64,000 nt of DNA from Selenomonas bovis DSM 23594 (lineage in GTDB: Bacteria; Bacillota; Negativicutes; Selenomonadales; Selenomonadaceae). The notes below the pieces were generated by a model that did not search any database, was not told the DNA's origin, and saw nothing but the letters and a program-made list of their open reading frames with translations. Both the position numbers and the translations under genes were made by a program. This document shows, piece after piece, positions 28,200-44,688 of the stretch (positions are counted from its first letter, which is position 1; every line of letters begins with the position of its first letter). Location of the stretch: assembly GCF_000381005.1 (NCBI RefSeq), contig NZ_KB908391.1:1-64000 (forward strand), in the 5' to 3' direction.

Positions 28200-31010
28200 A
28201 TGGACAATCACCAGGAGCGGCAGGCGCTGCAGCCGCCGGAAGGAAGCGAGATCAGAATCTATTACGAGGGCAATGACGAGGGGCTGCCTGTCGCCGATCC
28301 GACGCTTTTCGAGAAGATCAAGGCGGGCGAGGTGACGAAGACGAACCAGTTCATCTTCACTATCCAGCCCTGCGACCTGACGGGCGCCAAGACCATCATG
28401 CCGGAAGTATGGAAGGACGGGGAGGGGAAGGAATACCACCTGCACAAAGAAGTCTCCCGCGCCATCGGGACAGGTGCGTACTGGCTCGGCGCCCCGCGGG
28501 AGGAAGCAGCGAAGGAAGCTGAAAGGACGGCGTCCGTCCCGTCCGCCAGGCAGGAAAGCGCGCCCGCACAGGCGGCAGCGCCTGGGGAAGAGACGCTCGC
28601 AAGGGAGATACCTGCAGCTGAGAACGAGAGATCATCACGGGAGACAGCAGAAGCGGCTGCTGAAGGAAAGGCATCCTCGGATGCGGCTGACGAGCAGGTG
28701 AGACCGTATCGCAAAGGAAAAAAGGGCTACAAGAAACGCGACGTCTACAAGGAAACGACGGATAAAATCATCTCTATGCTCGAAAGCGGCAGCATGCCGT
28801 GGCAGAAGGCCTGGGACGAAAAGACGGCGGGGCTGCTCGTCAGCACGCCGCTCAACGGGAAGAACAACCGACCCTATACGAGGTGGAACAGGCTCTACCT
28901 CTCCATGCTCATGGAGGAACGCGGCACGGACGATCCGCGCTTCTTCACCATGGGGACACTCAAGCACCAGAACAAGATCCATCAGGCTAAGGTGGCGATG
29001 TGGAAGGCGCAGGGGAAGGACTACAAGCCGGAATTTGAATGGGAGTACCGCGTCAAGGAAGGAACACGCAGCATCGGCATCATCTCGACCTGGAAGGTAG
29101 ACACGGACAAATACGGCAACCCGCTCCCGGAGGAGGATCAGTATTTCGCGAACAAAAATACGAGCGTCTACCATGCGTCCGACTGCATCCGCCGCGAGTA
29201 CGAGCGCGACAAGGACGGCAACCTCGTCCGCGATGAGGAGGGCAGGATCAAATACACCGACCATCCGCTCATCCCTTGGGAGCCGAAGCACAAGGGATAT
29301 ACGCATGAGGAGCAGAGCGAGATCTGCGAGTCCATCCTCAAGGCGAGCGGTGCGAAGATCATCCACGATGTCCCGCGTCTCCATGAGTATCCCTGCTATG
29401 CGCCGTCAAGCGACACCATCCATCTGCCGCCGAAGGAGGCCTTTCCGGACATCAACCAGTATTACGCGACGGCCCTGCATGAGCTCGGCCATTGGACTGG
29501 ACACGAGACGCGCCTCGATCGGCCTCTGGCTTCGATGCAGAGCGACAAGGAATCCTACGCGAAAGAAGAGCTCCGCGCAGAGCTCGCCTCGACGTTCCTC
29601 GCCGTCGATCTCGGTCTGCCGATGAACCCGACGAACCACGCGGCCTATATCGGCAGCTGGATCAAGGCGCTCAAGGATGACAAGATGGAGATCTTCAAGG
29701 CATCGAATGACGCGAAGAAAATCGCGGATTTCGTCAAGAGCTTCATACCGGAGCGCTTCCGGGAAAAGGACGCGGCCCTCGTCGAGGCGCCGGAGGGCGT
29801 TGCTGAGACGAAGCAGGAGGAAATCATGGCCTATGACAAGGAGCGGCTGACAGCCGTAGACGATCCATCCCTTGAGACGCTTCCGGATGAGGACGCCGCC
29901 AAAGAGACGGCGCGGTTCTACCGCTATCTCACGAAACGTCCGGCAGGGCCCGGCGCGATTCCGGCGGAACATCTCGTGACCATCGATCCGCATCCTGCGG
30001 ACGCGCTGAATCCCGACGGGGAAGCCGTATACTACGCGAAGCAGCTTCCCGCATCAGTGGCCGCGAAGTACGAGCTCACGCCGGATTACACCTATTTCGC
30101 GAACAAATCCGTCCATCTCGAGATTTATCAGCGGAAGGAAGGCGGCGCGCCGCAGACGGATGCGCCGCGCTTATTCGAACAGGATTACGAGAAGACCTAC
30201 GAGGGGAACTTCGTCCGCACGGACAGCTCTTCCCAGGTCATCTGCGCGAAGGCGGTCGACAAGGTGACGAGCGAGGGCAGCATACCGCGTCCGCTGCGCG
30301 AGGGCGACATCATCGAGGTCGATGGGCAGCTCTGGAACCTCGACAAGACCGGCTTCTCGCGTGTCGAGCTGCATCCCTACGGCAACGACTACGCGATGGC
30401 GCCGCTGACGAGTGAGACGGTCAAGGCGCTCATCGAGGAGGCAAAGAAGAACATCAACGAAGAATCGTATGCCGTCTATCGGCAGAAATTCCGCGAAAGC
30501 AGCTACATTGGCGCGCAGAGCGACGCGACTCTCGCCGTGCATCCCGGCGTATTTCAGCCGACGGACAGCGAGAAGGAAGGCGCGGCGCTCGCCATGCAGC
30601 GCCTCTATGCGGAAGACTATCGCGAAAGGACACGCCAGGAAGGGCTCTCCATCTACACCCCGGCGGATGAGAAGGGGTGGAAGAAGCTCGACGAGGAATT
30701 TGCCGCCTCGTTCCTCATGAACGCGTTCGCGGGGAAATTCCATCAGGATGACGCCATCAGCAAAGGCCTGCAGGCAGGAGAGGACGGCATGCTTTACTAC
30801 ATGAGACTGGCGGAACATGCGATCCAGGAAAACAGCCCGTACTCCGTCATCTCGCAGGACAAGCAGTATGGCGAGCTCTGCGTCATCGACGCCGCCAAGC
30901 GGCAGGATGTCGACGCGGCGTACCGGGCATACAAGGACGGGAAGCGCGCGGGTGACGCGCAGCCGGAAGCGCGGCCAGAACAGGAAGCAGAAGAAGGCCG
31001 CAGCCGCTGA
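28200..31010 (+). CDS. ardC: ArdC-like antirestriction protein with zincin domain
   Basis: A 936-residue polyvalent protein. A short N-terminal domain (about residues 1-100) and a low-complexity linker precede an ArdC N-domain (about 180-340) with motifs such as PWQKAWDE, STPLNGKNNRPYTRWN and GIISTWKVD. This domain binds ssDNA and protects incoming DNA. A zinc-peptidase domain follows with HELGHWTGH (about 427-435) and a downstream RAELASTFLA helix. The C-terminal 400 residues hold further domains I cannot name. Start ATG after AAAGGAGGAGCCC. It is the first gene of operon 3, suiting early expression during establishment. Confidence 0.85.
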   Translation: MDNHQERQALQPPEGSEIRIYYEGNDEGLPVADPTLFEKIKAGEVTKTNQFIFTIQPCDLTGAKTIMPEVWKDGEGKEYHLHKEVSRAIGTGAYWLGAPREEAAKEAERTASVPSARQESAPAQAAAPGEETLAREIPAAENERSSRETAEAAAEGKASSDAADEQVRPYRKGKKGYKKRDVYKETTDKIISMLESGSMPWQKAWDEKTAGLLVSTPLNGKNNRPYTRWNRLYLSMLMEERGTDDPRFFTMGTLKHQNKIHQAKVAMWKAQGKDYKPEFEWEYRVKEGTRSIGIISTWKVDTDKYGNPLPEEDQYFANKNTSVYHASDCIRREYERDKDGNLVRDEEGRIKYTDHPLIPWEPKHKGYTHEEQSEICESILKASGAKIIHDVPRLHEYPCYAPSSDTIHLPPKEAFPDINQYYATALHELGHWTGHETRLDRPLASMQSDKESYAKEELRAELASTFLAVDLGLPMNPTNHAAYIGSWIKALKDDKMEIFKASNDAKKIADFVKSFIPERFREKDAALVEAPEGVAETKQEEIMAYDKERLTAVDDPSLETLPDEDAAKETARFYRYLTKRPAGPGAIPAEHLVTIDPHPADALNPDGEAVYYAKQLPASVAAKYELTPDYTYFANKSVHLEIYQRKEGGAPQTDAPRLFEQDYEKTYEGNFVRTDSSSQVICAKAVDKVTSEGSIPRPLREGDIIEVDGQLWNLDKTGFSRVELHPYGNDYAMAPLTSETVKALIEEAKKNINEESYAVYRQKFRESSYIGAQSDATLAVHPGVFQPTDSEKEGAALAMQRLYAEDYRERTRQEGLSIYTPADEKGWKKLDEEFAASFLMNAFAGKFHQDDAISKGLQAGEDGMLYYMRLAEHAIQENSPYSVISQDKQYGELCVIDAAKRQDVDAAYRAYKDGKRAGDAQPEARPEQEAEEGRSR

Positions 31011-31026
31011 CAGGAGGGAAGCAAAG

Positions 31027-34000
31027 ATGAAACGGGAAGAGATTTTAGCGGAGCAGGAGCGCTTTTTCAGCGCGGTCAGTGCCAATAAAGAGCGCTACCG
31101 TGATTTTCTCGCCAGCATGGCGGATCACTACAAGCAGCCGGTCGGGACACAGGTGCGCCTTTATTTCCACGCGCCTGCCGACGGGAGGGCATACGCTCCG
31201 GCGGCCATCTGGGAAAAGCTCCGGTCGCCGGTGAAGCCGGGCGCGGAGGGCATCGATGTCCTCCAGACGTCCGGTGAGATCGCGCAGGTCTACGACATCA
31301 CGCAGACAGAGCACGAAGAACAGGTTCGTCCGCTCGTATGGGCGTACCGCGAGGCACGGGACGGCGCCTCACTGACCGAGGTGAACGGCACAGCGCGGCG
31401 GGAAGGAGAGCAGACGGCGGACTACATCGTACGACTCTGTCGCGAGGAAACGGCAAGACAGGATGATGTTGAAAATAAGCAGCTCGTCGCCGCAGGTGCC
31501 GCCTATCTCTCGCTTACGCGCATGGGCCTGGAGGAGGAAGCAGGAAAGAAAGCCCTGCTCCCTCTGCTCATCGCGCCGTATGCGCGCACCGAGGGCAGTG
31601 CGCTCCTCGAAGCTACGCGGCGTGTCGCAGTCAAGATCCTCGACCCGGTCGCGAGCATCGCGAGGAACCATCACAGGCAGGAAACCCAGGAAGACAATAG
31701 AGCGCAGCAGGAAACGGAGGCAAAAGATCATGGAGACCATGAAAGAAATGCTGGAGGACGAGGAGCAGATGACATGGGAGACCGTGGAGGCGATGCCGGA
31801 GCTGCCGACGCTCGCGGCCTGGACGGAGTACCTGTCGAGGCGCTACCGGACGAAGGCAGTCAGCGAGGACGGGCTTTCCCTGAAGATCCGTCAGCTGAGC
31901 CGTCTCTGCCGTCTGTTGCACCATCTCGGACAGAAGATCGAGGCCATCTCGAGTCATCAGCGGATGCAGGAGAGGCCAAGCCTTTCGCGGGAACAGATCG
32001 AGGAAGCGCAGCGGTTGCGGGAACGGGCGAAGACCGTGGAGAAGGCCTGCGCGCGCGTGGTGAGCGACTGGGAGTACGAGCTGCGCGCGGAGGAAGCGCG
32101 GCAGGAAGCGGAGCGGCAGGAGGCGGTAGCGATGAAACTGGAAGCCCTGCGGCTCCGCGCGGAGAAGATGGAGGAGCAGCCGAAGATCGTGGGCAACTGG
32201 GCAGCGATCCGGCGGGCATGGTTGCGGGAGGAACGCCCGGCGCTCTGGATCGATCTCGTGAAGAGCGGGAAGGCGGCGCCGCACCTTTTAGCTATCCAGC
32301 GAGAGACAGCGAAGAACTTCCTCCGGATTATGGAGCTGCGGGTGGAACGGGAAGTACCGCAGAAGACGCGGAGCTTCCTGGAGGCGATGAATCTTCGCAG
32401 GAGCATCCAGCAGCAGACGTGGGAGGAGATGATAGCAAACATCACGCGGTGACAGCAGGAGGGGAAGACGGCAGTCCCTACGCCGCTTTTTCTTTGAAGG
32501 ACATCGACTACGCGGCAGATCTCTCCACGGTGAAGGGGAAACGCTCCGTCTTCGCGCGGAATCTCGCCGCGATCCGCGTCATGAAGCGCCTGGAGGAGGA
32601 CGGTCGCGGGCCGGACGAACTCGAGGCGCGCCTCTTGAAGAGTTACAGCGGGTTCGGCGGCATGCCGGAGGCCTTCGACCCGCGAAATACCGCCTGGCAG
32701 GACGAGTACCGGGCGCTGCGCCATTTTCTCACGCATGAGGAATACGCCTCTGCCCGCGCCTCCATCCTCGATGCCTTCTATACGCCGCACGATGTCACGG
32801 CGGCCATCGTCGAAGGTGTGGCGTCCCTGGGCTTTGCAAGCGGCAATATCCTGGAGCCGTCGTGCGGCTCGGGACGCTTCTTTGACGCGATGCCGGAGGC
32901 GATGAGGAAAGAAAGCCATATCGTCGGTATTGAGATGGATACGCTCACCGCGCGGATTGCGCGCGCGGCGCATCCGGACGTGGAGATTTTCGCGCAGTCC
33001 CTCCAGCGTTCCCGCTTTGCTGACGGCAGCTTCGACCTCGCCATCGGCAACGTCCCCTTCGGCGTGAATCCCATCTTCGGCGATGAAAAATACGAGGGAC
33101 AAGGCTTGAAGCCGCACGATTATTTCCTGCTCAAGATGCTCGACGAGGTGCGCCCCGGCGGCATCGTCGCCGCCATCACCGCCACGGGCACCATGGACAA
33201 GGGCAGCACGGCTGTTCGCGATCGCCTGGCGGAGAAGGGCGAGCTCCTTGCGGCCATCCGTCTTCCAGGCGATACGTTCGCGAGTGCGGGAACCGAGGCG
33301 GCGACGGACCTTCTCATCTTCCGCAGGAAAGACGGGCGCGTATTCGAGGATGCAGCAGTCAGGGAGCGGCTCGCCCCTGCAGGATGGCGGGAAATCCAGA
33401 GCTACCCCGACAGCGCGTTCAAGGAGCGCCACACCATCAACCGCTACTTCCAGCAGAACGAGGAGGACATCCTCGGCACACTCAGGGAACGGAGCGGTAA
33501 GTTCGGGCCGGAGCTTTACGTCGAGCGCCATCCGGACAAGGCGCTTGCCGACGCCATCCGGGAGGCATTCGCGCGGATTCCGCGCGCAGACTATTACACG
33601 CCGCCTGCGTCGCCGCTGCCGCCGCCGGTGCAGCGGGAGGAGGAGCAGCCGCACGACATTGGTTATTCCATCGAGAGCGGCTCGCTCGTCTACACCGACG
33701 TCATGGGCGAGACGAGAGAGCCGGAACTTACAGAAGAAGAGAAGGCGCGCGTGCTTTCCGCCATCAATCTCCGCGATGCGGGGCTCAAGGTTCTCGACGC
33801 GCAGGCGAAAGGCGTATCCAATGAAGACCTGCGGGCCCTGCAGAAGAAATTCCGCGCGTGTTACGACGCGCACCTCGAACAATACGGACGCATCCAGAAG
33901 GACCGGCTGCTCCTGCGCCTCTTCGCGGAGGACACGAGCTATCCCTTTCTCACGAGCCTTGAGGTCTACAACCGCCGGAAGGAATTTGAACGCCTCTCGG

Positions 34001-37000
34001 ACGTTTTCACGGAGCGTACGATCCAAGGCGTGCAGATTCCAGATCATGCCGATACCGCAGCGGACGCTCTCGTCATATCTATCCAGCAGAAAGGCGAGAT
34101 CGACCTCCGTTACATGGAGCAGCTGACAGGCCAGAAAGAGGGAGATCTCATCCGCGACCTCGAGTATACGCATATTTACTTCGACGAGGCATCCCACAAA
34201 TACATCGAGGCGAGCGAGTTCCTTTCCGGAGACATCTACGCCAAGATCGCCCGTCAGGGTAACATCATCGAAACTGCCGAAAAGGAAATCCGCGACATCT
34301 GCGACAGAAAGCTCAGCGGCGGTGCCGTCCTGCTGCGCACCTCATCGGAAAGCACTATGCCGGAGCTTTCCGAGACGCCGTCCCGCCTCGAGCGGCAGCT
34401 TCATTTCATCATCTCGCACATGGAGCGCAGTGGTAGGCTGCCCGCGCGGCTTTTCCTGGAATCCGGACTGGGCTTTTCCTTTCCCTCCCGTTATGAACGG
34501 GAAGGGCGCCTTGACTTTTCAGAGAATCCCTTCCTGAGTACCCGTGAAATGATGGCGCTTGTCATCAGGAATGTGGATTTTGAGAAGCAGCCGGAGCTGC
34601 GTCCCGTCGTCGCGGGCTATTTCGTTGCGGCTGCCAGGAGAGTGCCGTATCCATACGAGGGTTATGAAAGAATGTTTACGGAAAACGAAGCGGACACCGC
34701 GCAGAAGCTCTTCGGCGATCAGAGGTTCATGCTGGAATGCTTCAAGAGAGATCCGGAATACTGGAGATCTGCCCACGGCATCGACGCCGGTACGGATGAC
34801 TTCATCTCCAAGGTTGCCGCAGGGTATGCCGCCTGCGTCATGAATCAGCCCGGGATGGATCATAGTGCGGCTTTGGTGGTTCGCAGCGTGCAGAACAACT
34901 TAGCTGCGAGAGACGGCATCTCCATTCATGATAAGCTCGTCTGGCTGGATGCGGTCGGCGATTTCCTTCTCAGCGGCAGCAAGGTGGCAGAGCAGCTGGA
35001 AGGCCGCCGCTTTGACGATCCTGAGATGGTCTCGACGCTCCAGAACGTCGAGACGCCAGAGTCGCTTGCGCATCACTACGAGCTGCTTCCTGAGGAAGCG
35101 CGGGAGGAAATCAAGGCAAAGGAGCAGCAGATCGCCCGCGCGAAGAAAAACCGCGAGGCACTTGAGACCGTGAAGCCGGAGCACATCCCCGTCGGCGAGA
35201 TCGCCTTTTCCATCGGCTCGCCCTGGCTCAAGCGGGAATATGTCGAGGACTTCATCTGCGAAGCGCTCGAAATTGACAAGACATATTGGAATTCGCGCAC
35301 CTACCGAGACGAGGACACGCTCAAGGTCACATATGTGCCCGAGACGAGCACCTGGAGGATCGAACCGTCCAATTCCTTCGTCCGCGAGTACGGCGCACGG
35401 GGGACAAAGTGGCAGACACCTGGCATGCAGATGTTCTCCACGACGGAAAAAGGCTGCATCGAACTTCTGAATGACTGCCTCAACCAGAAAAAGACACAGG
35501 TCGTCGTGGATGGCCGCCGCGATGCGGAGCTCTCGATCGCCGCGCAGGCGAAACAGGACGCCATCGAGGCCGCTTTCCGCACCTGGCTGCTTAAGGACGT
35601 CAAGCGGGCGCAGGAAGTCGAGGACGTTTATAACAAGCAGTTCAACAACATCCGCCTGCGCCAGTACGACGGTGCGAATCTCCAGTTCCCCGACATGGCC
35701 AATACCATCACGCTCCATCCGCACCAGAAAGATGCTATCGCGCATCACCTTTTCGGTGGGAATACGCTCTTCGCGCATTGCGTCGGCGCGGGCAAGACGT
35801 ATGAGATGATCGCCTCCATCATGGAATCGAAGCGCATGGGTCTCTCCAAGAAGGCCATGATGGTGGTGCCTGCCCACCTCGTGCAGCAGACAGCAGAGGC
35901 GTTCCGGGAGCTCTATCCGCGCGCGACGCGCCGCATCTACGCACCGACGAAGAACGAGGTCGCGGGAACAGAGGGCATCAAGCGGCTCTCAGCAAAGATC
36001 GCCACGCAGAATCTCGACTGCGTGATCCTGCCCTATTCGACCTTCCAGCGGCTCAAGCTCTCTCCTGAGACAGAGGCAGGCTACCTGCAGCAGGAAATCG
36101 ACAAGCTCGACGACAGGTACAGCGAACTCGTCGCCGTGACGGAGAACCCGAAAAAGAACTTCACGATCAAGCAGCTGCAAAAGCGCATCTCGCGACTGAA
36201 GGACAAGCTCCAGTACATCGAAAAAGTGAATCAGAAGAAGGGAATTGCGGGCGCGATCCCGTTCGACAGGCTCGGCATCGACAAGCTCGTCATCGATGAG
36301 GCGCATTACTATAAGAACCTGCCCATTGAGACAAGCCATACGAATGTGGGCAACATCGGTAGCAGCGATCACTCGGAAAAATGCTGGGATCTCCTCATGA
36401 AGACGAAATATCTCAACGAGAAAACCGGCGGCCGCGGGTTGATTTTCGCGACGGGCACGCCGATCGCGAACTCGATGTCGGAGCTTTATACCCTCCAGCG
36501 CTATCTCACGCCGGATGTGCTCCAGAACGCGGGCATCTCCCACTTTGACGCCTGGTGTGCGAACTTCGGCGAAATCCTCTCCGAGCCGGAGCTGCGCCCT
36601 GAGGGCAAAGGATTCCAGACGAAAGAGCGTCTGCGCACGTTCAAGAACACGCCGGAGCTTTCAACACAGTTCCGTCTCTTTGCCGATGTCCGGACGCCGG
36701 AGCAGCTTCCTGGCCGCCATGTGCCGGAGGCGAACATCAAGATCGACGAGGCACCGGCCTCCAGCTTCCAGAAGGAGAAAATCAACGAGCTCTTCGAGCG
36801 CGGCGAAAGCATCCGCAAGGGGAAGCCAGACACCGTCATCAGGAAGGACGGCGTCGTGACGGACGACAGCATGCTCATCATCACGCGGGAAGGCCGCGCG
36901 CTCTCGCTCGACCCGAGAATCGAGACACCGTCTGCCGCTGACCTGCCGGACAGCAAGGTGAATCGTTGTGTGAAAAACGTTGTACGCGAATATGAAGCCT

Positions 37001-38280
37001 CCGCAGCGACAAGAGGGACGCAGATCATCTTCTGCGACACCTCTATCTCGACCAGCGACGCCGCGAAAAAGGGCGCGTTCAACGTCTATGACGACCTGCG
37101 CACCAAGCTGATCGCCGCGGGCGTGAAGCCGGAGGAAATCGCCGTCGTCCAGGAGACGAAGAAGGATCAGCTGGAAGAGAAAATCTTTGCGCCCATGCGC
37201 GAAGGGAAAATCCGCATTCTGCTCGGCTCGACGGACAGCCTCGGCGTCGGCACGAACGTCCAGACGAAAATCGTCGCGCAGCACGATCTCTCCGTTCCCT
37301 GGCGTCCGGCAGATCTCGAGCAGCGGATGGGCCGCGCCATCCGTCCCGGCAACGAGAACAAGAGCGTGAACATCTACCGCTATGTCACCCAGGGGACCTT
37401 CGACGCTTATATGTGGCAGACGCTCGAAGTCAAGCAGCGCGTCATTGCGCAGATGATTTCCGGCAACACGACGGCGCGCACGATCAGCGACATGGACGAG
37501 GTCACGCTCTCCTTCGCCGACCTCAAGGCTATCTCGACAGACAATCCGCTCTTCAAGGACAAGATGGAGCTTGAAAACGAGCTCGCCCGTCTCCAGATCG
37601 CCAAGGCAGGCTACGAGACGACGAAGCAGCGGCTCAAGGAACTCGCCGAGATCACGGGACCCAAGGAACTCCGCTCCATCGACGCGCGGATTTCCGGCCT
37701 CATGCACGATAAGATGCTCATCGACGAGAACACGGAGAAAAACGAGCTTGGCGGCGAGATTTTCCGCATGAAAATCGGCGATACTGTCTACCAGGACCCG
37801 CTGGAAGCGGCAAGGGTGCTGCATGAAGCCGCCAAAGGCGGACGGCAGAGCGCCAGCAAGATTCGGGGCGAATACCGAGGTATGAAACTCTTCGTCCGCA
37901 TCGACGACAAGACAAAGGAGCCATTCCTCAGCCTTTGCGGCACTATCTTTCACCGCGTCGCTTTCGCCCAGCCGGGAAAGGAACTCACGACCATTCATGC
38001 CCTGGATCATGTGAAGACGTCCATTGAGAAGAAAATCGTCCAGCTGAAGGAAGACCGCGCGCCCATCGAACGCAACATGTCTTCGGCTAAGGAAAAGATC
38101 AAGGAGCCCTTCGATGGAGAACTGCGCCTGAAAGAAGTGCAGAAGCGCCTGATGGAGATCAATGCGAAAATTGAGACGGCATCAGAAAAAGCCGTGAACG
38201 GATACCGGGCGAACGAAGCGCCGGAACCCTGCAGCCAGCAGGCGGCAGCGACCAGTGACGAAGCTGCCATGACAAGATGA
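31027..38280 (+). CDS. giant adenine-methylase / SNF2-type helicase polyvalent protein
   Basis: An open frame of 2417 residues starting at an ATG after AGGAGGGAAG. Residues about 1-230 resemble the small N-terminal domain seen in ArdC-type proteins (LYFHAPADGRAYAP, WEKL, VYDITQTE). A methyltransferase lies at about 560-800, with an SAM-site ILEPSCGSGRFFDAMP and the catalytic NPPY variant IGNVPFG near 673. A superfamily 2 helicase follows, with CVGAGKTYEM near 1585, DEAHYYKN near 1757 and QRMGRAIRPGN near 2098, then a coiled C-terminus. Such proteins are common on large conjugative elements and may modify or process the element's DNA. Residues about 235-475 are low-complexity because this stretch overlaps a gene in another frame (31730-32452). 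A separate helicase gene starting at GTG 32449 is an alternative reading. Confidence 0.8.
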   Translation: MKREEILAEQERFFSAVSANKERYRDFLASMADHYKQPVGTQVRLYFHAPADGRAYAPAAIWEKLRSPVKPGAEGIDVLQTSGEIAQVYDITQTEHEEQVRPLVWAYREARDGASLTEVNGTARREGEQTADYIVRLCREETARQDDVENKQLVAAGAAYLSLTRMGLEEEAGKKALLPLLIAPYARTEGSALLEATRRVAVKILDPVASIARNHHRQETQEDNRAQQETEAKDHGDHERNAGGRGADDMGDRGGDAGAADARGLDGVPVEALPDEGSQRGRAFPEDPSAEPSLPSVAPSRTEDRGHLESSADAGEAKPFAGTDRGSAAVAGTGEDRGEGLRARGERLGVRAARGGSAAGSGAAGGGSDETGSPAAPRGEDGGAAEDRGQLGSDPAGMVAGGTPGALDRSREEREGGAAPFSYPARDSEELPPDYGAAGGTGSTAEDAELPGGDESSQEHPAADVGGDDSKHHAVTAGGEDGSPYAAFSLKDIDYAADLSTVKGKRSVFARNLAAIRVMKRLEEDGRGPDELEARLLKSYSGFGGMPEAFDPRNTAWQDEYRALRHFLTHEEYASARASILDAFYTPHDVTAAIVEGVASLGFASGNILEPSCGSGRFFDAMPEAMRKESHIVGIEMDTLTARIARAAHPDVEIFAQSLQRSRFADGSFDLAIGNVPFGVNPIFGDEKYEGQGLKPHDYFLLKMLDEVRPGGIVAAITATGTMDKGSTAVRDRLAEKGELLAAIRLPGDTFASAGTEAATDLLIFRRKDGRVFEDAAVRERLAPAGWREIQSYPDSAFKERHTINRYFQQNEEDILGTLRERSGKFGPELYVERHPDKALADAIREAFARIPRADYYTPPASPLPPPVQREEEQPHDIGYSIESGSLVYTDVMGETREPELTEEEKARVLSAINLRDAGLKVLDAQAKGVSNEDLRALQKKFRACYDAHLEQYGRIQKDRLLLRLFAEDTSYPFLTSLEVYNRRKEFERLSDVFTERTIQGVQIPDHADTAADALVISIQQKGEIDLRYMEQLTGQKEGDLIRDLEYTHIYFDEASHKYIEASEFLSGDIYAKIARQGNIIETAEKEIRDICDRKLSGGAVLLRTSSESTMPELSETPSRLERQLHFIISHMERSGRLPARLFLESGLGFSFPSRYEREGRLDFSENPFLSTREMMALVIRNVDFEKQPELRPVVAGYFVAAARRVPYPYEGYERMFTENEADTAQKLFGDQRFMLECFKRDPEYWRSAHGIDAGTDDFISKVAAGYAACVMNQPGMDHSAALVVRSVQNNLAARDGISIHDKLVWLDAVGDFLLSGSKVAEQLEGRRFDDPEMVSTLQNVETPESLAHHYELLPEEAREEIKAKEQQIARAKKNREALETVKPEHIPVGEIAFSIGSPWLKREYVEDFICEALEIDKTYWNSRTYRDEDTLKVTYVPETSTWRIEPSNSFVREYGARGTKWQTPGMQMFSTTEKGCIELLNDCLNQKKTQVVVDGRRDAELSIAAQAKQDAIEAAFRTWLLKDVKRAQEVEDVYNKQFNNIRLRQYDGANLQFPDMANTITLHPHQKDAIAHHLFGGNTLFAHCVGAGKTYEMIASIMESKRMGLSKKAMMVVPAHLVQQTAEAFRELYPRATRRIYAPTKNEVAGTEGIKRLSAKIATQNLDCVILPYSTFQRLKLSPETEAGYLQQEIDKLDDRYSELVAVTENPKKNFTIKQLQKRISRLKDKLQYIEKVNQKKGIAGAIPFDRLGIDKLVIDEAHYYKNLPIETSHTNVGNIGSSDHSEKCWDLLMKTKYLNEKTGGRGLIFATGTPIANSMSELYTLQRYLTPDVLQNAGISHFDAWCANFGEILSEPELRPEGKGFQTKERLRTFKNTPELSTQFRLFADVRTPEQLPGRHVPEANIKIDEAPASSFQKEKINELFERGESIRKGKPDTVIRKDGVVTDDSMLIITREGRALSLDPRIETPSAADLPDSKVNRCVKNVVREYEASAATRGTQIIFCDTSISTSDAAKKGAFNVYDDLRTKLIAAGVKPEEIAVVQETKKDQLEEKIFAPMREGKIRILLGSTDSLGVGTNVQTKIVAQHDLSVPWRPADLEQRMGRAIRPGNENKSVNIYRYVTQGTFDAYMWQTLEVKQRVIAQMISGNTTARTISDMDEVTLSFADLKAISTDNPLFKDKMELENELARLQIAKAGYETTKQRLKELAEITGPKELRSIDARISGLMHDKMLIDENTEKNELGGEIFRMKIGDTVYQDPLEAARVLHEAAKGGRQSASKIRGEYRGMKLFVRIDDKTKEPFLSLCGTIFHRVAFAQPGKELTTIHALDHVKTSIEKKIVQLKEDRAPIERNMSSAKEKIKEPFDGELRLKEVQKRLMEINAKIETASEKAVNGYRANEAPEPCSQQAAATSDEAAMTR
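31730..32452 (+). CDS. TnpV-like protein nested in the +1 frame of the helicase ORF
   Basis: A 240-residue ORF with ATG after ACGGAGGCAAAAGATC. Its codons end in G or C as in neighbouring genes, while the helicase frame over the same bases gives Gly/Asp/Ala/Arg-rich low complexity. This stretch is therefore probably coding in this frame. The protein is helical; its last 85 residues (IRRAWLREERPALWIDLVKS onward) follow the pattern of TnpV proteins of conjugative transposons. Its stop overlaps a GTG (GTGA) that could begin the methylase-helicase. Function unknown. Confidence 0.7.
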   Translation: METMKEMLEDEEQMTWETVEAMPELPTLAAWTEYLSRRYRTKAVSEDGLSLKIRQLSRLCRLLHHLGQKIEAISSHQRMQERPSLSREQIEEAQRLRERAKTVEKACARVVSDWEYELRAEEARQEAERQEAVAMKLEALRLRAEKMEEQPKIVGNWAAIRRAWLREERPALWIDLVKSGKAAPHLLAIQRETAKNFLRIMELRVEREVPQKTRSFLEAMNLRRSIQQQTWEEMIANITR

Positions 38281-38293
38281 GGGAGTGACATTG

Positions 38294-40801
38294 ATGGATA
38301 TGGATCAGGAAGAAAGGGACGTACTCAGAAAGAGCCTCGGCGAGGATGGCATGCGGGTTTTCACGGCCATCGAAGCCACGCTTTCGGAAGGAAACGAGGC
38401 AGTTAAAAACTCCGCGAGCGTCGGCGCGGCGATCCTCGCCAGCCATGCGAAAGCCTGGAGCGAGGCAGAAACAGCAGCAGGCAGGAAGCAGAGTGCGGAG
38501 GACTATCTCGAAACCGTCAATGTCGTTGCCAATAAAACGGCAGGAGATGTGGAGCTCGAAGACCTTGAAAAGGTAGTTCGCCGTTGGAACCGGACGATTG
38601 ACGAATATGCGGCGGCAGACAAAAAGGAATGGAAAGCTCATCGAAATGGTGATTTATTTCCTGTGATGAAAATACCCCTTGTGTTGCAGACATTGGGCGC
38701 ACCGCTTGAAGAATTGTATGTTTTTGGCAGTTTCTTTGCTCATTCATTGGAGCATAGGGGGATGAGTCTGGATTTGTTGCGTCAACTCCCAGAAACATTG
38801 GTAGATCCGTTGATGTTGATTCGAGGGAATAAACCGAATAGTTATGTATTTGCCATTGAACTCGTTGATCGAAATGGAGCGAGCATCGTTTCAGTAATCG
38901 AATTTGAAAAATCGTACAATCCAAGTAAAGCAAAAGCAAATATCATCAACACGGCATTTGGGAAAACAAATAGCTCTATCGATGATACGCCGTCTATGCG
39001 ATGGTTTCAAAGACGTATTGAGGCGGGAGATGTCCTTTATTTGAATAAAAAGAAAAGCGTCAAATGGTTCAGAACCCACGAGAACTCGTCTCTCGCGTCA
39101 TCTGAAACACTTAACGCTTTATCTACGCTCATTCTATCAGAAGACATGAAAAAAGTAAAGACCGAAGAAGACCTTGAACGGATTAAAAAAGAGCATCCCA
39201 CGCGCTATCAGCTTGAATATCATTCGCCGGAAGAAGACAAAAAATGGTTTGAAGGACGGACAGAATTTCTTGCAAGCGGAAAGCGCATCATGAACCTCTT
39301 TGAAGGCGCGGACGAAACGACCTTTCTGCACGAAACTGCGCATATACTGTATGACGATTTGAGAAGGGCCTCTGCGCTGGATGAGACAGCGAAGAAGGAT
39401 TTGAAAGTCGTGGAGGAATGGGCTGAGTGGCGGCCAGGACAGGCTGAGGAATACGGGGGAACGGCATGGGGAAAGGAGTTTTTCGAGCGCGATGAGGCAA
39501 TTCGTGCGGCGATAAAGAGTGGGGATGCTGTTTTGGAGCGAGAGCTCCGCGCCGAATGGCGGGAAGAACGATTCGCGCGAGGATTTGAAGGCTACCTGGA
39601 GAAGGGAAAAGCTCCTACGAGTGCCTTGCAAGGCGTATTTGACAGGGCAAAGTGTATTTTCAGAAATGCGTATGCAGCATTCCGCGGCAAGGGAGGTCGC
39701 CCCTCTCCTGCAGTGGAGAAGGTCATGGCTCGGATGGTTTCCACATCATCAGAGAGGAAAAAGGAAAGGAAGACGGAAATGAAGAATGAACAAATGGCCG
39801 CGTCATGCTATGAAGAGCTGCAGGATGTCCTAGATGCAGCGGGAACCAGTCTGCCAGAAGCGGCGAACCGGCGTCTCCAGAGCGCGGCGGAGACGCTGCG
39901 GGACGCCATGGAGGCGCTTGAACGAACGGAGCAGGAATACTGCGGGCCGGATCAGGAGGCCTGGGATCGCTTCGCCTCGCTGCAGGAGGAGAATATCCGT
40001 AATATCCTCGCCGCCGCGGACATCGCCGATGCAGCAGGCAGGGAAAGCGAGGCTGCGGAAAAAGCCGTAAAAGAATCTATCGCAGGCCTTGAGCGGGGCA
40101 CCGCTTATCTCAGGCAAAGCACGGAGCGCATCGAGCAGCGCGAGGATCAGCTGGATGAGCAGCTGGAGTTCCTCGAACAGAGTAAGGCGGCCATCGAGGA
40201 AAGCGCCGCGTATCAGATCGGCGTAAAGGAGCAGTTTTCCAGTACTGTCAGCGCGATGAACCGTTTCCTGGATGAGGTACGTGCAAACCGAAAGCAGTCA
40301 GCCCGCGTGCGGCGGGAGGTCGCTTCTGCATGCCTCAAAGCTGGCAGAGAAGGGGTGAAGGAGCTGTATTATGCGTTCAAGTTCCTGCCGGTCAAGGTAG
40401 AAAAAAGCATCATCGAGAAAAACGATGATGCGGTAAATCGTTTCCTGATGCAAGCGCAGTTCCTCTTTGAAAAGGGCGCGGAGAAGCTGCACCGTGAGAC
40501 AGCTGCTGCCATTGACGCGGCCCGTTCCCACCAGTTGGCGGAAGACTTTTACCGCGAGGCATGGAAAGATGAATGTCAGAAGGCAGGCGGCACGCCCACG
40601 ATCGAAGTCGATCGTTGTGTCGCCCGCCGGATGGCAGCGGCAGGGATGGGAGAATATACGATCAGGGCGACGCTCTCGTGCCATTCTCCGTTTCAGAAGG
40701 AGCTCGCGAGAGACGGCCAGGCGGAAAAGATCGCAAGAGAGGCGAAAAAAGAGATGGCCGGAAGGGAAAGTGGTGTCAGGGAGGAAGCCGTCATCAGATG
40801 A
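38294..40801 (+). CDS. polyvalent protein with MuF-C toxin-like and HExxH domains
   Basis: An 835-residue protein; ATG after GAGGGAGTGAC. Residues about 120-260 (LVLQTLGAPLEELYVFG, HRGMSLDLLRQLPETLVDP, SVIEFEKSY, then GDVLYLNKKK) follow the phage MuF C-terminal toxin domain, a predicted RNase-like fold. Residues about 335-440 contain HETAH, a zinc-peptidase-like motif. The second half is long coiled coil. Bases about 38640-39300, which encode the toxin-like part, are visibly more AT-rich than both flanks, pointing to acquisition as a module. It may act in the recipient after transfer, or in conflict with rival elements. Confidence 0.75.
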   Translation: MDMDQEERDVLRKSLGEDGMRVFTAIEATLSEGNEAVKNSASVGAAILASHAKAWSEAETAAGRKQSAEDYLETVNVVANKTAGDVELEDLEKVVRRWNRTIDEYAAADKKEWKAHRNGDLFPVMKIPLVLQTLGAPLEELYVFGSFFAHSLEHRGMSLDLLRQLPETLVDPLMLIRGNKPNSYVFAIELVDRNGASIVSVIEFEKSYNPSKAKANIINTAFGKTNSSIDDTPSMRWFQRRIEAGDVLYLNKKKSVKWFRTHENSSLASSETLNALSTLILSEDMKKVKTEEDLERIKKEHPTRYQLEYHSPEEDKKWFEGRTEFLASGKRIMNLFEGADETTFLHETAHILYDDLRRASALDETAKKDLKVVEEWAEWRPGQAEEYGGTAWGKEFFERDEAIRAAIKSGDAVLERELRAEWREERFARGFEGYLEKGKAPTSALQGVFDRAKCIFRNAYAAFRGKGGRPSPAVEKVMARMVSTSSERKKERKTEMKNEQMAASCYEELQDVLDAAGTSLPEAANRRLQSAAETLRDAMEALERTEQEYCGPDQEAWDRFASLQEENIRNILAAADIADAAGRESEAAEKAVKESIAGLERGTAYLRQSTERIEQREDQLDEQLEFLEQSKAAIEESAAYQIGVKEQFSSTVSAMNRFLDEVRANRKQSARVRREVASACLKAGREGVKELYYAFKFLPVKVEKSIIEKNDDAVNRFLMQAQFLFEKGAEKLHRETAAAIDAARSHQLAEDFYREAWKDECQKAGGTPTIEVDRCVARRMAAAGMGEYTIRATLSCHSPFQKELARDGQAEKIAREAKKEMAGRESGVREEAVIR

Positions 40802-40804
40802 TGT

Positions 40805-43800
40805 TTATCTTCCATGAGATTCTTCTTCTTCGATGTCTTCTTGATCAAGGCGGGATATGAGACGCCAATCCTCTTCGAGCGTGTTGTCTTTTTTGTCGCT
40901 GGCGATGAGTGCGCCATGCTGCATGTCGAGGTCTCTTGCAACTGCACGGGCGTGTTCGATGCGTGAGCGCGCAGGAGCGCCGCCATGTCCGCCGCTTTCC
41001 GCCTGCCCCGCGGGATGTGACGCAGCATCGCCATATCCGCCGCCTTTTCCGCGTGCATCCGCATGCGGGAGAGACGCACTTCGATGTACGATGTCTCCTT
41101 TTTTCGCCATGACGGCTGTGACGACCTCGTCCTCGTGTATGAGGCGCTCATGCTCTTCCTCCAGCGCGCGCAGTTTCGCGGATACGCGCTGGAGATTTTC
41201 TACGGCAGGACGGTTTTTCTTCATGATGCCGAGCGCGATGCGTTGGATCTTTGCTTCTGCCTCCGGCGTATCCCGCCGCTTCTCGATAGCTGCCCGCGTG
41301 GCATCGAGCTCTCTTTTCCAGGTTTCCAATTTGCGCGCTCTCTCGTCGAGCCTTTTACGTTCAGCGAGCAGGGCGCTTTTTTCATTGTGGTAGGTTTCGG
41401 TGTCTTCGGCGTGTCTTGCGTGGAACGCTTGTACTTGTTCGCTGAATTTCTTGTTGTCGTTTTGGAAATAAGTTTCCTGTTTTCTGTATTTTGCTTCCTG
41501 CTCGCGGAGGCGTTTTACGCCGCCGTGCTCGTAGATGTTCTCCGCGATTTTGATGATGCGGTCGTAGCTATACACGGCTTTTTTCGCCTGCATAAGCTCC
41601 TTCTGTTTCCGCTCGATGGCGAGATACTGGTAGTGTCGCGCGATGCCGAGGAGGTGGCTGGCCTCGGCGAGTGTCATAGCAAGATCGTCCTTCATCGCGC
41701 TGAGCGGAAGCGCCCCGTCGAAGCGGCGGGCGTGCGCCTCGTCGAGGGTGCGCTTGTACGCCTTCGCCATCGCATCGAGGGAACGGAGAGATTTGAGATA
41801 GCGTTGCTTCTCCAGTTCGTTGTTGAAGAGCAATTCGTGGATGCGGTGCTGGATTTCTTTGTGTGTGTCACGCGAGGAAAGCTTCGCGAGATAGGGCTGG
41901 AGTTTTTCCTCGGCGGCCTTGTGTTCCGCTTCGAGAATGCGTAGGCGTTCCTGTACCGCTTCATCCAGCTCGTCGCGGGCAACGAGTTCATCGATGTCAT
42001 CACTGTCGATTTCTTTCTGGAAAAGCTCATCCCAGAATCTTTTTTGCTCGCTGAGATCGCGGCGCAGATCCATCGCCCGCGTCCATGCCTCGCGCCCATC
42101 TTCATCCAGATATTCAAGACGCGCTTCCTCATAAGCAGCATGTCCCCAGACTACGCTGCTTTCGAGTGCACGGGCTGTGTCATACACCGCTTTCAGTTTT
42201 TCCCGCTGCGCTGCAAGCTCCTTCTGCGCGGCTTCATCAAGATGCGCGAAAGATTCCTGCATGGCGGCATCATATTTTGCGTAGGCGCTTTCGCGCAGAT
42301 CGGCAGCCGCTTGCTCCTTCTTCTCATCCGCGTCGAGCTCGCGCTTGATGATGGCATCAAGCCGCTTGTCATTGAAGGCGCGGAGCTCCTTCTGCTGGCG
42401 CACGACATCATCATCGCGCGCGATGGAGATAGGATCGGTGTGGCGCTCGGCAACGCGGTCGAGAATTTTCGCCAGCACAAAGTCGCCCCGCAGCTCCGCG
42501 TTCATCTTCTGCACTTCGAGGGAGAGCGCATCGACGCGCGAGGGGACGCCGTGCTTTTCAAGGACTTCGTTCTGAATTGCAGCGTAATCCTGCCGCATGC
42601 GGAAAAGATATTCTGCGCGGTTTTTCCCACGCCATTTTTCCGATTTTTCGCAGCCGCCGCGTTCCGGATATTTTTTATTTACGCGCTTGAAGAACATCTC
42701 AGGATTGCGTTCCTGCCGCCGCTCCAGATCGTCAAGCTCGCGCGTCGAGAACATGATATGGACATGCGGATGCCGCTCGCCGAGCGACATTGAGCCGACT
42801 TTTTCGTGGATCGCCCAAGCGTAATAATAGTCCTTCAGATGTTTTTCGAGAAAGCGATCGAGAATCTCCCGGCTCTTTTCTATCGGCAGCTCGTTCGGAA
42901 GAGAGAAAACAATCTCCTTATAGCGTTCACCGTTGGCGCGCTCAAATCGGTCTGCTGCGTGAAAGAAACGCAGCGCAGAACCTTCGGCCCATTTCGGCAA
43001 ATGGTTTCCGGTCATCACGCAGCCGCCGCGCATTTCATAAATCGCTTCGCGGTTGATGTACTGGAGATGCGAAAAAGCAAAATCGCCGGTTTCGTTTTTC
43101 TGCAAGATTTTCAGGATGGCATCCGACGCCTGGTTTACAGCGTCGCGCCGTCCTGGAGAAACGGACCGTCGCAGATCAAGACGGGGATCCCGTCTTGATC
43201 GCTCGTCGAGTAGCTTGGTGCCTGCATCGCGCGGCAATAGCAGACGAGGTCTTCCCCTTTTAGCAGCCACATGGCCTGCGGGCAGTGCATGCAGATGAAG
43301 TCCTGGGGCAAGTGCTTCTTTGGTACGTTTTGCAACGTCATCGATAGACATTGTGGCAAGCTCGATGGATTTTGGGAAATCTCGTTTCCCGTTTCCGGCT
43401 CGATCTCGCTTTCGAGCTCCGCTTCCGGCGCTGGTTCCGACAGATCCAGACTTTCGTCCTCCGCGCTCTCGTCTAGTACGCCGAGCAAGTCCTTCAGCGA
43501 TTCCTTTTCCTCGCTCATTTGATTCACGCTCCTTCTTTTCACTTTCGCTCTTGATTTCCATTTCGATATTGGAGAAATGCGCGCCGAGCGCGAATGCGTT
43601 CGTCGCAAAAATCAGCTTCTGCTGAAACTCCTCACCGCCGTTTACCGTTACTTCGTCGCCGAAGATTTTCTGCGCTGTCGAGAGCGCTATGGCGACTGTC
43701 TCCGTCGAAGCATACTGACTGACATGGATGCCCATCTTGTCGAGAGAGATTTTCCCGAACGGGGAGTCGTAGAGAAGCATTGGCTTTTCAGGGAGCGCCA

Positions 43801-43978
43801 TGATGGGATGCTCGCCAGAGAGATACTGGCGGAAACAACTTTTCGCGCCGAGTGCCTGCTGCTGATCGATGTCCCGGAACTTTCCCTCGCGGTTCACATA
43901 TGTGACGTGCGAAGTGGAGGAAATGCGCATGCCGTTAGGCTTCTTGTCGGTCTTGATCCTGAAATGGTAGCAAGCCAT
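40805..43978 (-). CDS. mobA: MobA/MobL-family (MOB_Q) relaxase
   Basis: A 1057-residue relaxase on the minus strand; ATG at 43978 after TTAGGAGGTGTG. The N-terminal part (CYHFRIKTDKKPNG, HVTYVNREGKF) is the MobA/MobL opening. The main relaxase region restarts at about residue 290 (SHLQYINREAIYEMRGG) and includes the three-histidine metal site HPHVHIMF near residue 400. The rest is long coiled coil. It nicks oriT and pilots the strand through VirD4. The linker at about residues 154-281 is low complexity because the same bases encode another gene in the +1 frame. The C-terminus converges on the polyvalent gene, 3 bases apart. The oriT lies upstream of its start. Confidence 0.88.
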   Translation of the reverse strand: MACYHFRIKTDKKPNGMRISSTSHVTYVNREGKFRDIDQQQALGAKSCFRQYLSGEHPIMALPEKPMLLYDSPFGKISLDKMGIHVSQYASTETVAIALSTAQKIFGDEVTVNGGEEFQQKLIFATNAFALGAHFSNIEMEIKSESEKKERESNERGKGIAEGLARRTRRERGGRKSGSVGTSAGSGARKRDRAGNGKRDFPKSIELATMSIDDVAKRTKEALAPGLHLHALPAGHVAAKRGRPRLLLPRDAGTKLLDERSRRDPRLDLRRSVSPGRRDAVNQASDAILKILQKNETGDFAFSHLQYINREAIYEMRGGCVMTGNHLPKWAEGSALRFFHAADRFERANGERYKEIVFSLPNELPIEKSREILDRFLEKHLKDYYYAWAIHEKVGSMSLGERHPHVHIMFSTRELDDLERRQERNPEMFFKRVNKKYPERGGCEKSEKWRGKNRAEYLFRMRQDYAAIQNEVLEKHGVPSRVDALSLEVQKMNAELRGDFVLAKILDRVAERHTDPISIARDDDVVRQQKELRAFNDKRLDAIIKRELDADEKKEQAAADLRESAYAKYDAAMQESFAHLDEAAQKELAAQREKLKAVYDTARALESSVVWGHAAYEEARLEYLDEDGREAWTRAMDLRRDLSEQKRFWDELFQKEIDSDDIDELVARDELDEAVQERLRILEAEHKAAEEKLQPYLAKLSSRDTHKEIQHRIHELLFNNELEKQRYLKSLRSLDAMAKAYKRTLDEAHARRFDGALPLSAMKDDLAMTLAEASHLLGIARHYQYLAIERKQKELMQAKKAVYSYDRIIKIAENIYEHGGVKRLREQEAKYRKQETYFQNDNKKFSEQVQAFHARHAEDTETYHNEKSALLAERKRLDERARKLETWKRELDATRAAIEKRRDTPEAEAKIQRIALGIMKKNRPAVENLQRVSAKLRALEEEHERLIHEDEVVTAVMAKKGDIVHRSASLPHADARGKGGGYGDAASHPAGQAESGGHGGAPARSRIEHARAVARDLDMQHGALIASDKKDNTLEEDWRLISRLDQEDIEEEESHGR
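43135..43518 (-). CDS. Cys-rich small protein nested in the +1 frame of the relaxase
   Basis: A 127-residue ORF with ATG at 43518 after AAGGAGCGTGAATCAA. The first 55 residues are acidic. The rest is a compact Cys-rich domain with HCPQAMW, LVCYCRAMQ and ending LICDGPFLQ, which looks like a small zinc-binding fold seen next to mobilisation genes. Codon third positions in this frame are G/C-rich as in true genes here, unlike the relaxase frame over the same bases. It could be a relaxosome accessory. Confidence 0.7.
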   Translation of the reverse strand: MSEEKESLKDLLGVLDESAEDESLDLSEPAPEAELESEIEPETGNEISQNPSSLPQCLSMTLQNVPKKHLPQDFICMHCPQAMWLLKGEDLVCYCRAMQAPSYSTSDQDGIPVLICDGPFLQDGATL

Positions 43979-44170: not shown

Positions 44171-44210
44171 GCGTTTCTGCCCGAAGGGAGAAACGCCTAA
44201 GTGCACCTCC
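44171..44210 (+). other. origin of transfer (oriT) with MOB_Q nick region
   Basis: GCGTTTCT (44171-44178) and AGAAACGC (44189-44196) form an inverted repeat, extended inward by CCC-GAA-GGG. Two bases later comes TAAGTGCACCTCC (44198-44210), matching the IncQ/pSC101-type nick consensus TAArTGCGCCCT. By analogy the nick is after 44205. Hairpin, spacing and adjacent MobA/MobL gene all agree. The 5' strand would lead into the topB-ssb operon. Confidence 0.8.
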
Positions 44211-44255: not shown

Positions 44256-44277
44256 CACGTTGCAAATTTGCAACGTG
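44256..44277. repeat. 22-bp perfect palindrome upstream of the leading-region operon
   Basis: CACGTTGCAAA followed immediately by its exact complement, with no spacer. It lies just upstream of the promoter at 44286, as an operator would. Its core TGCAAATTTGCA contains the same TGCAAA/TTTGCA half-sites as the 42-bp promoter elements. Confidence 0.7.
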
Positions 44278-44373: not shown

Positions 44374-44688
44374 ATGAGCGAAAATGAAAAATCGAAAAAG
44401 AAAAATTTTGAAGAAATGTCGAAAGACATTGATGCAAAAATTTTAGAAACGGAAGATGCACTAGGGAAATTGGAAGCGAGTCTTGAAAAGACGAAGGAAA
44501 AAGTCAAACGGATGAAAGACAAATTGAACAACCTGCGGGAAAAGAAAAAAGCGCTGTTTGGGGATAAGATTTGCAGCGAAGGCATCCGTTCTTTTTCCGA
44601 ACTCGATGAGCTGCTTGCGCTTCATCATGAGACGAATCCGACGAAAGATGAGGATTCGTCTCGTCCGGATGAGGGGGCGATGATGTGA
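44374..44688 (+). CDS. small coiled-coil protein of the leading region
   Basis: A 104-residue, very Lys/Glu-rich protein. About residues 15-65 are one long coiled coil (ETEDALGKLEASLEKTKEKV). The C-terminus is acidic and ends on the topoisomerase start (GTGA overlap). Its small size, charge and place next to oriT fit a relaxosome accessory or an SMC-like DNA-binding helper, but no family is recognised. Confidence 0.75.
   Translation: MSENEKSKKKNFEEMSKDIDAKILETEDALGKLEASLEKTKEKVKRMKDKLNNLREKKKALFGDKICSEGIRSFSELDELLALHHETNPTKDEDSSRPDEGAMM

Follow-up and report, generated by a model that had tools for sequence, protein, structure and literature searches.

Genes nested within other genes have mostly been discussed as single cases. 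In plasmid RSF1010, the auxiliary mobilisation gene mobB is reportedly nested in the MOBQ relaxase gene mobA; its product MobB is said to be membrane-associated and without the Cys motif of the protein described here. In the IncP plasmid RP4, TraH is described as an acidic product of a second reading frame inside traI, which stabilises the TraJ-TraI interaction at oriT, and the nesting of traH in RP4 traI is already known (PMC7314908). A search of the open-licence literature with a few terms, which provides weak evidence of absence, returned no account of a recurrence of traH across relaxase superfamilies (MOBQ, MOBF).

Here, we describe a nested gene in the first 64,000 nucleotides (positions 1-64,000, forward strand) of contig NZ_KB908391.1 from Selenomonas bovis DSM 23594, hereafter referred to as the window. 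This gene shares with the IncP traH genes in traI (RP4, R751, pB12) a homologous protein, a nested position in the +1 frame of a relaxase gene, a Shine-Dalgarno sequence and an acidic N-terminal part, and with R751 traH also an LPD7 domain directly upstream in the host frame. The two systems differ in that the IncP host is a MOBP TraI whereas the window host is a MOBQ MobA/MobL relaxase, and in that traH is located behind the catalytic domain of the host in IncP plasmids but before it in the window.

A nested traH-family gene in a MobA/MobL relaxase gene

The features of the nested gene and its host, in the order in which the host gene is read, are as follows.

40805-43978, minus strand: host gene, MobA/MobL (MOBQ-type) relaxase of 1057 aa, open through the nested gene
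43886-43909, minus strand: first HxxYxNRE repeat, host residues 24-31, before the LPD7-traH block
43550-43729, minus strand: LPD7 domain of the host, residues 84-143, matched by a trained profile
43529-43534, minus strand: Shine-Dalgarno sequence AAGGAG of the nested traH, 10 nt before its ATG
43135-43518, minus strand: nested gene of the traH family, 127 codons and a stop, +1 relative to the relaxase frame
43046-43069, minus strand: second HxxYINRE repeat, host residues 304-311, after the LPD7-traH block
42500-43024, minus strand: MobA_MobL domain match (Pfam), host residues 319-493, with HPHVHIMF at residues 403-410

The nested gene starts 460 nt from the start of the relaxase gene, i.e., in the +1 frame, and overlaps host residues 154-281, upstream of the MobA_MobL part. 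The latter was recognized by PF03389 in Pfam (E 2.3e-19, profile positions 35-207 of 224) and contains the histidine motif HPHVHIMF, while the NCBIfam MobQ equivalog scored 54.8 of 200 bits, which is under the cut-off. The original prediction of a Cys-rich gene of 127 residues with a ribosome-binding site, nested in the +1 frame of the relaxase, is borne out by the coordinates, by the AAGGAG sequence and by the TraH homology presented below. It had also described host residues 154-281 as low in complexity; the overlapped stretch is indeed Arg-rich and low in complexity, and the correction to be made is that the stretch just before it is an LPD7 domain. An ORF with a MuF C-terminal domain (PF18819; window 38285-40801, plus strand) directly adjoins the end of the relaxase gene.

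On the other side of the relaxase gene, a candidate oriT is located in a divergent intergenic region.

44171-44210, plus strand: candidate oriT, inverted repeat GCGTTTCT/AGAAACGC followed by TAAGTGCACC, with the same layout beside several related relaxases
44374-44688, plus strand: divergent 104-aa coiled-coil-like ORF, adjoining the candidate oriT

We take the candidate oriT to resemble the RSF1010 oriT and the MOBQ core. A perfect palindrome, CACGTTGCAAATTTGCAACGTG, was observed close to it (window 44256-44277). The product of the coiled-coil-like ORF is possibly an accessory protein, and the element in the window also carries a coupling protein, a VirB4/TrbE-like protein and TrbI and TrbL-type proteins.

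The nested protein is a homolog of TraH of IncP plasmids

We searched the 72,556 plasmid records of PLSDB with the window protein (tblastn, E up to 1), and 781 records were matched. Among the best matches were stretches in the +1 frame of MOBP relaxases from Massilia putida (2e-7), Campylobacter fetus (2e-6) and Pseudomonas viciae (7e-6), and MobQ relaxases were matched at E 0.02. Among the collected loci, the traI gene of R751 was found to hold a homolog (E 4.8e-9, tblastn with composition correction and filter turned off), which is located at an offset of 1546 nt in traI and is thus again in the +1 frame; the gene at the matching place in traI of the IncP plasmid pB12 is annotated as traH. 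By these matches, the window ORF is a homolog of TraH of IncP plasmids (R751, pB12). No significant match to the window TraH was obtained in Pfam or NCBIfam, nor to the R751 TraH in Pfam.

The window TraH is acidic, with 25 D+E residues as compared to 6 K+R, and eight positions are invariant over 14 aligned members (L62, C76, C79, W84, C93, C95, C116 and G118). The spacing of the cysteines suggests that the five-Cys C-terminal domain may bind zinc; the suggestion is drawn from this spacing because the AlphaFold models of TraH were poor (mean pLDDT about 60 in two models). A sequence search of the PDB gave a single match (E 0.84), which was taken as chance.

traH recurs in one reading phase

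In total, 137 single-copy traH loci were located, all of which (137/137) are in the +1 frame of a longer ORF and none in the +2 frame, although many of these are near-copies and do not represent independent cases. A profile search of 380 genomes of the class gave 56 matches in 34 genomes, or 53 loci once double matches had been merged, with a profile that was built from members including R751 and several of these same loci. Of these loci, 44 are single-copy and all in the +1 frame of a longer ORF, while nine are tandem-double and free-standing; decay is visible in at least two of the 44 nested loci (L125, L130), and some hosts are short or ended by the contig. By a pattern scan of the named genomes, 104 relatives were confirmed; we retained 80, many of them near-copies of IncP TraI. 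All 80 are located within a host ORF in the +1 frame, and 78 of the hosts are longer than 250 aa, the exceptions being a frame-disrupted locus (L168) and one ended by its contig (L196). The plasmid loci (L001, L063-L066, L068 and L236-L242) are likewise in the +1 frame in 13 of 13 cases, of which L236-L240 were selected for gene tables suggestive of a free-standing gene or an unusual host. A 62-residue TraH consensus matched 1024 plasmid records, of which the loci named here were read. A frame artefact or sequencing error can be ruled out, since the two frames stay open across many separate genomes.

Phage records yielded three partial TraH matches at E 0.8. In IMG/VR, 87 stretches fitted the pattern from an alignment of proteobacterial TraH proteins and none was confirmed; likewise, nothing was confirmed when genome contigs were scanned with the window protein alone.

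At the place of traH, the gene table gives only the host CDS in eight of the 13 plasmid loci, the PLSDB tables being incomplete. In P. aeruginosa pP9Me2 (L239), the table has a small hypothetical protein at the traH match, and in A. nasoniae paNv_CAN5 (L240) it is blank there; both tables list an LPD7 protein further on and no relaxase, and an open frame of 1279 and 930 aa, respectively, spans the match. Gene callers may have been misled by the nested traH at these loci, or the gene table may be incomplete. In six genomes of genus g13 (G202, G230, G238, G244, G246, G249), we observed two to four nested-traH relaxase loci each, which suggests that a cell carries several related elements or that the bins are mixed.

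The hosts are unrelated relaxases

We scanned 49 hosts against Pfam (E <= 1) and found matches to MobA_MobL in 40, Relaxase in 23 (overlapping), TrwC in two and LPD7 in 37. The position of traH varies among the hosts. In MOBP TraI, it is located between LPD7 and the TraI C-terminal domain (R751, L214, L226-L228), with one host ending at traH (L157), while in other MOBP hosts it precedes LPD7 (P. viciae, Massilia putida, L202); in C. fetus it is located at the end of the host gene. In MobA/MobL hosts, it is placed either behind the domain (L066, L128, L129, L171, L212) or, in the Selenomonadaceae including the window, before it. In the TrwC (MOBF) hosts, it is located between the relaxase and the helicase (L103 in G032, L127 in G085). 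One host matched LPD7 and KfrB without a relaxase match in Pfam (L234), and another gave no Pfam match at 0.01 (L130). The arrangement thus recurs in three unrelated kinds of relaxase, which argues that the nested traH is not a chance open frame, and the nesting of homologs in the same phase in many relaxases identifies the ORF as a real gene.

The nine tandem-double TraH-like genes (L131-L139, from G230, G286, G244, G223, G281 and G272) are not nested but homologous, which shows that the wider family does not depend on nesting. A TrwC (MOBF) relaxase gene precedes the tandem-double gene in five of the nine loci (L131, L132, L135, L136, L139), with a 4-nt overlap between the two genes in three (L132, L135, L139); at L133, L134, L137 and L138, the tandem-double gene starts close to the end of its contig and a TrwC match was not obtained. 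Within MOBF, the family is thus found both inside the relaxase gene and immediately after it, in keeping with a co-translational tie to relaxases.

In a tree of the TraH domain (78 of 105 rows, with the TraI rows thinned by half, and 76 columns), the proteins cluster by host context, with 9 changes among five host classes as compared to a least possible number of 4, the classes being assigned by hand and including L238-L242 without a Pfam scan. Only 6 of the 75 inner branches are starred as well supported and some branches are very long, and the tree cannot settle the number or the direction of the nestings.

The role of TraH in the window is taken from RP4, and it is conceivable, if rather less likely than a stabilising role at oriT, that the protein acts otherwise, e.g., in folding of the relaxase, in regulation or in docking of the coupling protein. 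The relaxosome role described for RP4 TraH (PMC7314908) argues against this, as does the finding that in the host-scanned loci, decayed or truncated ones apart, traH is located in or directly behind relaxase genes.

Both frames are constrained

In codon shuffles in which the nested protein was held fixed, the host frame was stop-free in all 30 non-redundant cases (sum of log10 P = -92, with P below 1/4000 set to 1/4000), as compared to a mean of 2 to 10 expected stops, and the other frame has stops in every case. These cases were reduced from 48 loci, with the two visibly decayed loci (L125, L130) and the tandem free-standing genes left out; the nested stretch was taken from the profile match, which in some rows starts before the true start. 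For the window, the analysis was redone from the ATG, and the host frame was open in 0.33% of the recodings (P = 0.0033; 5.0 stops expected).

We also compared 4-fold sites in 11 close pairs, selected from 132 so that no locus is in common although some are close kin of each other. The 4-fold sites of the host differ at 29 of 416 positions in the overlap as compared to 767 of 2295 outside it, and those of the nested gene at 52 of 342 (Fisher p = 9e-13 versus outside). Since the wobble positions of the nested gene are first positions of the host, the slowing of the nested sites points to constraint on the host frame. In many pairs, the host residues are at least as divergent within the overlap as outside it, and the constraint on the host linker is thus weak. 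Of 101 distinct nested starts, 83 have an exact Shine-Dalgarno match of 5 nt or longer before them, as compared to about 10% of the control windows. The best-scoring start was chosen in both sets alike, and duplicate domains, the tandem genes and the loci L125, L126, L130, L168 and L196 were left out. Together, the shuffles and the 4-fold sites indicate that both frames are under constraint; to this extent, they support the earlier expectation that the host frame is probably translated through the nested gene.

These data bear on the idea that the locus encodes three separate proteins, i.e., an N-terminal protein (residues 1-154), TraH and a relaxase core, with the continuity of the host frame being incidental. 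The Arg-rich and low-complexity character of the overlapped stretch is compatible with such an arrangement, and in L130, where the adjoining traH is broken, the N-terminal part is encoded in a short frame of 252 aa that has no relaxase match in Pfam. We nevertheless consider it improbable, given that the host frame is open in every non-redundant case and that the nested 4-fold sites are slowed. Moreover, no good Shine-Dalgarno sequence was seen by eye at the ATG/GTG/TTG codons 292, 316, 321, 322 and 327 within relaxase residues 281-330, the region for which the absence of an obvious internal start after the nested gene, as originally noted, was confirmed.

The LPD7-traH block of the Selenomonadaceae

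The window relaxase carries an LPD7-traH block between two HxxYINRE-like repeats near its N-terminus. The LPD7 domain was not reached by Pfam in this host. It was matched at residues 84-143 (i-E 4.7e-10 in a set of about 100) by a profile that we trained on 50 stretches preceding traH in TraI-type hosts of the named genomes, and the match stops 11 residues short of the nested ATG. With this profile, LPD7 was identified upstream of traH in 33 of the 35 distinct loci of the Selenomonadaceae form. The order of LPD7 followed by traH is, as judged by the profile, common to the window form and TraI.

Four relatives without traH have a short stretch between the two repeats (L002 in pSRC6, L151 in G022:C42, L152 in G041 and L154 in G099), while two others have one HxxYINRE-like motif only (L153, L017). 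The MobA/MobL relaxase of pSRC6 from Selenomonas ruminantium resembles that of the window in its two HxxYINR-like repeats and in a similar oriT-like site, but has a short linker where the window relaxase has LPD7-traH, and the whole plasmid gave no traH match. No traH match was found in G041, and the only match in G099 (E 0.26) is on a different contig. In G022, traH was matched on C26 only. From these comparisons, the LPD7-traH block was gained or lost in Selenomonadaceae relaxases.

A recent insertion of a block that is functionally unconnected to the relaxase frame into this lineage would account for the relaxases without the block, one of which occurs in the same genome as a block-bearing one (G022:C42 versus G022:C26). 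This explanation is very improbable because the block is found in hosts that over their whole length are often less than 35% identical to that of the window, which shows that it is old in its Selenomonadaceae form, and because both frames are constrained. Functional overlap and module insertion had been put forward as alternatives; each holds in part, since a short linker occupies the site of the block in traH-less relatives while the overlap itself is conserved and constrained. The contrary case, a related relaxase lacking the stretch with the Cys-rich gene encoded elsewhere, was not seen, and pSRC6 as a whole is without both. Finally, with the window host protein fixed, 20% of recodings leave all 128 codons of the +1 frame free of stops (P = 0.20), so that its openness alone proves no gene, but the view that it is a spurious shadow of the Arg-rich linker is ruled out by homology and by the conserved Shine-Dalgarno sequence, the Cys-rich protein being conserved in hosts of three relaxase superfamilies and the host 4-fold sites being strongly slowed in the overlap.

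A second nested gene on the same element

The original prediction had mentioned another +1 nested gene on this element and had taken the two cases to suggest selection for compactness as one of two options. The second case is real: a gene for a TnpV-like protein (PF14198, E 3e-8; window 31463-32452, plus strand) is located in the +1 frame of a methylase/helicase ORF of 2487 aa (window 30817-38280, plus strand). All six TnpV-like loci found among 100 relatives, the window included, are in the +1 frame of a longer frame, with host lengths limited by the available stretches. Selection for compactness on one element is not needed to explain traH, however, because its nesting is old and spread over many plasmids.

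Discussion

We are confident, short of certainty, that the window contains a MOBQ relaxase gene whose linker is overprinted with a gene of the traH family, with one mRNA giving rise to both proteins and TraH most likely serving as a stabiliser of the relaxosome. From sequence comparison, the nesting is an old and conserved gene-within-gene arrangement. We infer that both frames are translated in the host organism and, by analogy to RP4, that TraH of the window has a relaxosome function. One message with two start sites would thereby yield two proteins of one complex, a relaxase and its stabiliser. Ribosomes that initiate at the relaxase ATG would read through to produce the full-length relaxase with its Arg-rich linker, while those that initiate at the internal Shine-Dalgarno sequence would produce TraH, a small and acidic protein with a five-Cys C-terminal domain. 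TraH would then, most likely as in RP4, stabilise the complex of relaxase, accessory protein and oriT, and its nesting would fix its co-expression with the relaxase.

More tentatively, and with somewhat less than even confidence, we propose that traH lives inside other genes, as one family in the linkers of MOBP, MOBQ and MOBF relaxases, always in the +1 frame and partly spread as an LPD7-traH block. Both frames may have been selected because translation of TraH within the relaxase message, or coupled behind it by a 4-nt overlap, would set the stoichiometry of the relaxosome.

The occurrence of one gene family in one phase in the linkers of three unrelated host families offers replicated cases for asking why genes overlap, and the recurrence of traH also makes it possible to ask how an overprinted gene moves. 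TraH points to a component of the relaxosome that would have been overlooked because it lacks a match in Pfam and NCBIfam and because often only the host CDS is given in the gene tables.
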